From the NCBI GenBank assembly GCA_947623225.1, contig CANQGO010000015.1, positions 1 to 40,673 of the forward strand: DNA of 40,673 nt, given 5' to 3'. This stretch comes from an uncultured Clostridia bacterium (GTDB lineage: Bacteria > Bacillota > Clostridia > Christensenellales > CAG-314). The first letter of the stretch is position 1, and each line of letters starts with the position of its first letter. The position numbers were made by a program, and so were the translations under genes. Under the pieces are notes generated by a model, which saw only the letters and a list, made by a program, of their open reading frames with translations, ran no database searches and was not told the DNA's origin. Positions 23,434 through 40,673 of the stretch are shown here, piece by piece.

Positions 23434-23508
23434 GGCTCCATAGTCTAGCGGTCAGGACGTTGGCCTCTCACGCCGATAACATGGGTTCGAGTCCCATTGG
23501 AGTCACCA
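23434..23508 (+). tRNA. tRNA-Glu (anticodon CUC)
   Basis: A complete cloverleaf with encoded CCA. The acceptor stem GGCTCCA pairs with TGGAGTC (one G-T pair), the anticodon stem TTGGC/GCCGA holds loop CTCTCAC, anticodon CTC reading GAG, and the T-arm is ATGGG-TTCGAGT-CCCAT. Length 75. Parts of its 3' half are copied twice just downstream. Confidence 0.96.
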
Positions 23509-23517
23509 GATATATAA

Positions 23518-23549
23518 GCGAGGAAAGAAAATTCCTCGCTTTTTGTTTT
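23518..23549 (+). terminator. Terminator after tRNA-Glu (unit 1)
   Basis: GCGAGGAA, 6-base loop, TTCCTCGC, then TTTTTGTTTT. It lies 9 bases after the tRNA CCA and is duplicated at 23682-23713 as part of the tandem unit. Confidence 0.92.
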
Positions 23550-23586
23550 ATATTACGCACTACTCGAAACCAATAACATGGGTTCG

Positions 23587-23652
23587 GGAGCAGAGCGACC
23601 CTGACGCACGAGCGAAATGGAGTGAAACGACATTGACGCGAACGCGGCAGAG
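23587..23652 (+). other. 66-bp insert splitting a tRNA T-loop (unit 1)
   Basis: The insert lies between the G and A of the T-loop TTCG|AGT, so the T-stem halves ATGGG and CCCAT still flank it and could pair. Inside, GAGCGAA and GAGTGAA repeat 10 bases apart, TGACGC occurs twice, and GCAGAG occurs near both ends. The left edge can also fold as GGGTTCG with CGACCC. No coding signal; no match to a group I intron, which would be far longer. Confidence 0.85.
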
Positions 23653-23678
23653 AGTCCCATTGGAGTCACCAAGCAAAG

Positions 23679-23842
23679 TAAGCGAGGAAAGAAAATTCCT
23701 CGCTTTTTGTTTTATATTACGCACTACTCGAAACCAATAACATGGGTTCGGGAGCAGAGCGACCCTGACGCACGAGCGAAATGGAGTGAAACGACATTGA
23801 CGCGAACGCGGCAGAGAGTCCCATTGGAGTCACCAAATAAAG
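23679..23842 (+). repeat. 164-bp tRNA-Glu-derived unit, copy 2
   Basis: Second tandem copy, same layout: terminator 23682-23713, T-loop insert 23751-23816, tRNA 3' end to 23835. It appears identical to copy 1 except for the last few bases after CCA. Such identity implies recent duplication or ongoing gene conversion. Confidence 0.9.
23682..23713 (+). terminator. Terminator inside unit 2
   Basis: Exact copy of the terminator at 23518-23549: 8-bp stem, 6-base loop and T-run. Confidence 0.9.
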
Positions 23843-23847
23843 TAAAG

Positions 23848-23884
23848 GCGAAACCGTTTCCATCAGGAGACGGTTTCGCTTTTA
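23848..23884 (+). terminator. Strong terminator closing the tRNA-Glu region
   Basis: A 14-bp stem, GCGAAACCGTTTCC with GGAGACGGTTTCGC (one G-T pair), a 4-base loop ATCA, and a T-run. It differs in sequence from the two unit terminators and ends anything that reads through them. Confidence 0.92.
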
Positions 23885-40525: not shown

Positions 40526-40600
40526 TGGGGTATCGCCAAGCGGTAAGGCAACGGATTCTGACTCCGTCATCCGCAGGTTCAAATCCTGCTACCCTAGCCA
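40526..40600 (+). tRNA. tRNA-Gln (anticodon CUG)
   Basis: A complete cloverleaf with encoded CCA. Acceptor TGGGGTA pairs with TACCCTA (one G-T pair), discriminator G; anticodon stem ACGGA/TCCGT with loop TTCTGAC, anticodon CTG reading CAG; T-arm GCAGG-TTCAAAT-CCTGC. Length 75. The weak first pair U1-A72 is the identity mark used by GlnRS, which is encoded in this window. Confidence 0.96.
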
Positions 40601-40605
40601 GGCGG

Positions 40606-40625
40606 GCAACTACGCTTTTAGTTGC
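40606..40625 (+). other. Small hairpin after tRNA-Gln
   Basis: GCAACTA, 6-base loop, TAGTTGC. Likely a 3' processing or precursor element of the tRNA transcript. Confidence 0.6.
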
Positions 40626-40628
40626 AAC

Positions 40629-40661
40629 GGAAAGGAAGCACAACGAGGTGCTTCCTTTTCC
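40629..40661 (+). terminator. Probable terminator of the tRNA-Gln transcript
   Basis: GGAAAGGAAGCAC pairs with GTGCTTCCTTTTCC over a 6-base loop (one bulged T). The window stops 12 bases later and no T-run is seen, so termination is likely but not proven. Confidence 0.65.
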
Positions 40662-40673
40662 ATTGCTGCCCTA

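Follow-up and report, generated by a model that had tools for sequence, protein, structure and literature searches.

The window examined here, by which we mean the whole 40,673-nucleotide stretch of DNA from an uncultured Clostridia bacterium of the order Christensenellales, contains a tRNA gene whose 3′ end recurs further downstream within tandem repeats. The locus raises the question of what these repeats are, whether they belong to a wider class of element, and how they came to stand behind a tRNA gene. An earlier interpretation of the letters alone, hereafter the sequence-only reading, had singled the locus out as possibly undescribed, and several of its claims are taken up below where the results bear on them.

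The tRNA-Glu locus of the window

An intact tRNA-Glu(CTC) gene lies on the forward strand at 23434..23508, where it was called by ARAGORN and, in Rfam, matched RF00005 at 65.5 bits. It is followed on the same strand by two direct repeats of 164 bp (TRF period 164), unit 1 at 23515..23678 and unit 2 at 23679..23842, which differ at two of their 164 positions (159-160, in the linker after the CCA); the description of the pair as apparently identical tandem units was thus correct as to the tandem arrangement and slightly off as to the identity. Each unit opens with a hairpin resembling an intrinsic terminator, located at 23516..23541 in unit 1, where a 10-pair stem precedes a T-rich tail, and at 23680..23705 in unit 2. 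The tRNA variable loop and the 5′ half of the T-stem are then copied at 23570..23588 and 23734..23752, respectively, with 17 of 19 positions matching (two mismatches), and after this copy come a 63-nt insert (23589..23651 and 23753..23815) and an exact copy of the last 20 nt of the tRNA, from the T-loop purine to the CCA (23652..23671 and 23816..23835). In the gene itself the copied part occupies 23489..23508, so that, as had been claimed, the tRNA 3′ end is present three times, in exact occurrences starting at 23489, 23652, and 23816. Because the 63-nt insert stands between two tRNA-derived parts, we read it as interrupting the T-loop of the tRNA copy, and the unit is accordingly what the sequence-only reading took it to be, namely a terminator joined to a split tRNA 3′ part.

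Behind the last copy is a distinct hairpin with a T-rich end (23843..23884, forward strand; inverted repeat I2), which is possibly the original terminator of tRNA-Glu and which received no flag from the terminator scan. That scan reported three terminator-like sites on both strands, against a shuffle mean of 0.8. The predicted RNA fold of the unit was better than those of 200 out of 200 shuffles (z = −4.41), a result of which the terminator hairpin forms a part.

This is not a normal tRNA cluster, nor is it a CRISPR array, since the repetition extends over the full 164 bp without unique spacers; on both points the sequence-only reading stands. The copies are also unlike those of an attachment site, being 164 bp apart, with the repeat itself as the spacer and with no integrase or element body between them. 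The whole 164-bp unit was found at no other place in the window's genome (1.48 Mb in 52 contigs) and in none of 100 relatives, 11 of which contained partial matches that nearly always covered the tRNA 3′ end; the insert was matched in one of these 100 genomes alone (G024; 38 nt, 87%), a match taken for chance. The unit as a whole was hence not recovered from relatives, but related units were found both at the same locus and behind other tRNAs.

Related units in the genome, the genus, and the order

Within the genus, the tRNA-Glu 3′ end was present at no more than two mismatches in 14 of 25 genomes, and the loci inspected besides the window comprised one in each of 12 genomes and two in G008. 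The gene is bare in three of the 14 (G012, G018, and G020) and is followed by at least one unit in 11, the tandem arrays varying in number up to six units (G006); the arrays of G002 and G008 are truncated by contig ends, and the tRNA-end copies are incomplete in G010, G011, and G021. Two main kinds of unit occur at this locus: type A, which measures about 97 bp in several species, and type B, of about 180 bp. Both can be found within the same array, as in G006 and G019. The forms nearest to those of the window, by eye, are in G011 and G021. Near the tRNA-Glu array of G021 there is also an Rfam match to 6S RNA below the threshold (L010, 911-1118; 34.7 bits, with a cut-off of 46.4).

In a type-B unit, a linker with a terminator-like hairpin comes first, followed by an arm, by a structured core that is conserved, and by a copy of the T-loop-to-CCA portion of the cognate tRNA; by our reading, the copy would begin at the T-loop purine (position 57). 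The type-A form seen in the window has the terminator and then the tRNA 3′ part with the 63-nt insert that splits the T-loop, and is without a long complementary arm. Unit spacing is mostly about 95-330 bp, with one spacing of 501 bp. Searched at no more than one mismatch, the conserved core CGAAATNACGTAGCGCTCC gave 58 matches in 19 of 201 genomes, all of them inside the genus, and 55 sites were retained after the removal of identical contexts. At 32 of the 55 sites a tRNA precedes the core and its last 20 nt are repeated beyond the core with at most two mismatches; among the other 23, no tRNA was detected upstream at 10, no copy was present at 11, and the copy had three or four mismatches at two. 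The tRNAs that carry type B at these 32 sites are those for Glu, Ala, Pro, Ser, Val, Ile, Leu, Met, Arg, and Gln, and the distance from tRNA to core is 107-114 nt in 25 of the 32 units.

RNAalifold, applied to the 32 units, gave a short core stem with changes on both sides, plus a second hairpin. The compensatory changes are at columns 44/56 (GC in 19 units, AT in 13) and 45/55 (CG in 19, TA in 12), and the core stem of the sister genera is GTGACG/CGTCRC. On the sense strand, G-T pairs outnumber A-C mismatches by 19 to 1 in the sister genera, with the excess mostly at one column, and by 3 to 2 in the genus alignment, so that these counts are a weak indication that the sense strand of the core folds. 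By eye, a hairpin element of about 50 nt with the end GGCTAAG was seen inside the type-B core of one species (L055, the tRNA-Glu array of G006), and the same hairpin was seen in two other species within the D-loop of copies of tRNA-Leu (for example, L072 of G004); it looks like a putative second small mobile element.

The window's own genome shows that tRNA-Glu is not alone. ARAGORN called 26 distinct tRNAs in the examined loci, 19 of which have at least 250 nt of downstream sequence, and five of these 19, namely Glu, Leu(cag), Ser(cga), Ser(tga), and Trp, have an extra copy of their last 20 nt at no more than three mismatches within 700 nt, while reversed tails, serving as the control for chance, gave no match in 37 windows. 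Other tRNAs of the genome are truncated by contig ends, including the second tRNA of the window, tRNA-Gln(CTG), at 40526..40600 on the forward strand. Behind this gene is the left half of a type-B unit (40601..40673, forward strand), cut off by the end of the contig; contig C49 of the same genome, when reversed, opens on the window's final 66 bases and runs into the type-B core, and the assembly was probably broken at this point by the repeat. The array of tRNA-Leu(cag) (L262; G000:C1, reverse strand, 1584-2083) holds two consecutive units of 250 bp, whose tRNA copies are interrupted twice, by separate inserts in the D-loop and the T-loop. A D-loop kind of array was also found, made of copies that run from the D-arm to the CCA without the 5′ acceptor strand; two such arrays, at contig ends (L269 on G000:C12 and L273 on G000:C38), contain three copies apiece, spaced 163 and 172 bp apart, and the copies, in which ARAGORN calls no tRNA, would be of tRNA-Thr(ggt) and tRNA-Arg(acg) as we read them. 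A further observation is a weak second tRNA match (G000:C7:1634-1701; 31.3 bits) near tRNA-Thr(cgt), on the side opposite its integrase gene.

The units recur at many tRNA types and in many species and genera. A covariance model built from the 32 genus units (R1) matched 23 of the 25 genus genomes at an E-value of 0.001, with up to 16 matches per genome and nine in that of the window; no listed match lies on the window's contig, and the window's own units are unmatched by R1. Together with the ten amino acids at which type B is found, this distribution bears out the earlier suggestion of a class of tRNA-born repeat. In the family, R1 matched 32 of 41 genomes, including 9 of 16 outside the genus, where the sister-genus matches are weak and where 14 of the 25 loci read show a tRNA followed by a core and a copy of the tRNA end. 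A second model (R2), made from 22 sister-genus units, matched 66 of 396 genomes and 19 of 142 genera of the order at an E-value of 0.0001, counts that are lower bounds, as few candidates were scored per genome. The matches fall in families f1, f3, f6, f15, f17, and f29, with f15, f17, and f29 known from model matches alone. A tRNA and a copy of its end at no more than three mismatches are present at six of the 12 loci L300-L311 (L300, L301, L303, L308, L310, and L311), four of these six being from families f3 and f6, and the remaining six loci do not have this combination. One genome of the genus, G020, has no match to either model. Two sub-threshold Rfam matches to sX4, in L300 (1319-1523; E 0.005) and L291 (1323-1452; E 0.09), each extend over a tRNA-Ser into the beginning of the unit that follows.

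Cores standing at unlike tRNAs in one genome have a similarity of 0.784, versus 0.741 under label shuffling (29 pairs; reached in 0 of 2,000). For cores that share an isoacceptor across genomes the similarity is 0.769 (25 pairs), which is less strong, being reached by 33 of 2,000 shuffles. As both the within-genome and the isoacceptor similarity exceed the shuffles, we infer that spread or conversion within genomes has occurred together with vertical descent.

The arm, taken as the 26 nt preceding the core, was compared with the end of its own tRNA in pairing energy against permutations. The mean energy of 32 genus arms with their cognate 3′ ends was −12.67 kcal/mol, versus −9.05 kcal/mol when permuted, and none of 20,000 permutations was as low. 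This cognate pairing is a group effect, with 14 of the 32 arms in the best tenth and 18 outside it, the latter including several of Ser, Ala, Pro, Leu, and Met; 11 of the 32 outrank all ends of other amino acids. A second test on 22 sister-genus units gave −12.19 versus −8.15 kcal/mol (0 of 20,000) in a set that is not fully independent, eight of the 22 units being without a detected tRNA tie and a few being near-identical. These units were absent from the first arm test and were found with the model of the first set, which contains no arm pairs. The units of the window have no 12-nt stretch complementary to the tRNA at one mismatch or fewer.

Comparison with the tyrT repeat and other known systems

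The plan of these repeats is already known from the 178-bp tyrT repeat of E. coli and its RtT RNA. Egan and Landy are said to have first reported the E. coli repeat in 1978, and although it has been known for decades we know of no settled role for it. In E. coli K-12, the 20-nt end of tRNA-Tyr (tyrV) occurs again at +178, +356, and +534, each with one change, and one upstream copy of the tRNA end, also with one change, lies at −119; as a positive control, Rfam recognised the three downstream units as RtT at 134-138 bits. The RtT core was present in 4,680 of 5,426 complete E. coli genomes at one to nine BLAST places each, and of two complete genomes that were inspected one has five units behind one tRNA-Tyr and the other has one plus two units.

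The Clostridia units resemble RtT in being tandem units behind a tRNA that each end in a copy of its last 20 or so nucleotides including the CCA, and also in the complementary arm of type B, the T-arm-like stretch ahead of the hairpins, and the varying number of units. In the RtT model the outer stem pairs an arm with the tRNA end, a feature that is present for type B as a group and absent in the window's units; in layout, it is the window's type-A unit that comes nearest to RtT. They differ from RtT in that the core sequence is dissimilar, in that each unit has a terminator-like hairpin, and in that tRNAs for ten amino acids are involved within one genus. RF00391, the RtT family, had no match in the window stretch at E-values up to 10, nor in seven loci at E-values up to 0.5 or nine loci at E-values up to 1, one of these 16 being from the window's genome, and no Rfam family fits the units in the window stretch and 16 other loci. 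The Clostridia units tested are, by score, not members of RtT. The expectation that the locus represents something not yet described therefore has to be divided, because the plan is that of the tyrT repeat, whereas the host lineage, the different conserved core, the ten tRNA amino-acid types within a single genus, and the cognate complementary arm are new as far as our literature searches show, which returned no paper on such arrays in Clostridia.

Elements that integrate into T-loops carry a block running from the T-loop to the CCA, and the units are like these tRNA-targeting integrative elements (T-loop attB, attL/attR) in carrying the 3′ end and in restoring the tRNA. They differ in being mostly shorter than 330 bp, in having cores common to unlike tRNAs, and in that no integrase was seen tracking them. 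An analogy is also offered by the attC arrays of integrons, whose units terminate in inverted repeats that are imperfect and conserved in their 3′ part; here, however, it is a tRNA 3′ end that recurs, and the tyrosine recombinases that are present were tied to no unit in the loci read. REP/BIME sequences and other small palindromic repeats are similarly short, structured, and interspersed, whereas the location of the present units is bound to tRNA 3′ ends, with cognate copies. A link between rtT-like sequences and BIMEs is reported in PMC2965389.

Candidate movers and explanations

Tyrosine recombinases (PF00589) had matches in 24 of the 25 genus genomes and were compared across 38 loci (L206-L243). 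One, a protein of about 354 aa, was read at a single locus (G000), with matches of similar score elsewhere. Another, a 299-aa XerD-like protein, was confirmed in 10 genomes, among them G020, the genome without any unit match, and is assigned to an eleventh (G024) by score alone; in three genomes (L206, L212, and L214) its gene lies upstream of tRNA-Leu(cag) and points away from it, and at L206 type-B units stand behind that neighbouring tRNA-Leu(cag). The third is a solo family of about 302 aa (L208, L210, L211, and most of L224-L241), with several copies in some genomes, which in the stretches read is mostly away from tRNA genes. The labels XerS-like and XerD-like are ones that we presume to apply to these recombinases. 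No family was seen tracking the units in the loci read among the 25 genus genomes, and tyrosine recombinases were set aside as the mover. Y1 transposases, found in 11 of the 25 genomes (E 1e-5, some as fragments), were likewise set aside, on account of their distribution; none is present in the window's genome, which is possibly incomplete and which, as assembled, does not show what would mark an IS200/IS605 element. Reverse transcriptases, in four of the 25 genomes and absent from that of the window, were set aside on the same ground. Three exact patterns searched for viral carriage had no match in viral contigs. The proposal that the units form a landing pad for integrating elements was not borne out, as in the window's genome tRNA-Thr(cgt) and tRNA-Pro(ggg), which have an integrase gene beside their 3′ ends, are without tRNA-end copies within 700 nt, and no integrase family was seen to follow the units.

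The reading that we prefer, at a probability of about 0.5, is that the units are cassettes without genes of their own, which spread from tRNA gene to tRNA gene and leave the tRNA intact through the 3′ end and terminator they carry. Such cassettes would reach new tRNA genes through insertion into the T-loop, with a sister form at the D-loop, and a putative enzyme would recognise their hairpins. The tRNA would stay functional because the cassette supplies its 3′ end and terminator, and arrays would lengthen or shorten by recombination between the tRNA-end copies. Any RNA function of the kind proposed for RtT would be secondary. Part of the similarity among units is to be ascribed to vertical descent, given that units at the same isoacceptor are alike across species.

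The main rival, which we regard as possible though rather unlikely, holds that the units encode an RtT-type RNA, in which read-through transcripts would yield a stable hairpin RNA ending in a tRNA-like CCA minihelix, perhaps concerned with amino-acid stress, and in which spread would occur by gene conversion and not by insertion. The shared plan with RtT, the compensatory changes, the cognate minihelix, and the excess of G-T pairs in the sister genera, mostly at one column, are all consistent with it, as are the Northern signals for RtT RNAs in Actinobacillus and the modulation of the stringent response by RtT, both reported in PMC4986893. The genus alignment, however, shows hardly any such G-T excess, bare tRNA-Glu genes exist in relatives, and in the Clostridia units the tRNA is separated from the remainder by a terminator-like hairpin, so that read-through should be rare.

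A very improbable alternative is that the units are serial remnants of attachment sites, each left behind by a phage or an integrative element for which the T-loop served as attB, the cassette itself never having been mobile. The copied block from T-loop to CCA is indeed the cargo of T-loop-integrating elements, and recombinase genes lie upstream of the tRNA-Leu(cag) arrays in G006 and G023, but conserved cores at unlike tRNAs and the nearly constant tRNA-to-core distance in most type-B units do not fit the decay of unrelated elements, and both the two integrase-adjacent tRNAs without copies and the lack of exact matches in viral contigs speak against it. Just as improbable is plain tandem duplication, in which replication slippage would have multiplied the tRNA 3′ end with its terminator and descent would account for the conservation: the near identity of the window's units and the variation in unit number within E. 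coli and among relatives agree with it, whereas the presence of a single core at ten types of tRNA, together with copies and arms that are cognate, and the similarity within genomes are left unexplained, and as the whole story we judge it a poor prospect. An assembly artefact, which might be suspected from short contigs, several of which end at or inside such units, is extremely improbable given that the plan recurs, in different sequences, in assemblies made independently, that the three junctions in the window's array differ from one another, and that RtT arrays are present in complete E. coli genomes.

Beyond the cassette reading itself lies the wider proposal, which we consider unlikely and put forward as speculation, that mobile cassettes devoid of genes form a general class, whose members would insert into the loops of tRNAs and be guided to new targets by pairing between the arm and the tRNA 3′ end, with RtT of E. 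coli as a long-known relative. If this were true, a changed arm would mean a change in the tRNA used. For practical purposes, tRNA 3′ ends of this kind can break short-read assemblies and can be mistaken for phage attachment sites, and they should be treated with corresponding caution. The occurrence of the same plan across part of a Clostridia order, at many types of tRNA and with arms that fit their own tRNA as a group, turns what was a single oddity of E. coli into a comparative system. In it, the agent that copies the tRNA end, the process by which the arm stays matched to it, and the nature of the units as parasites, terminators, or RNAs become testable.
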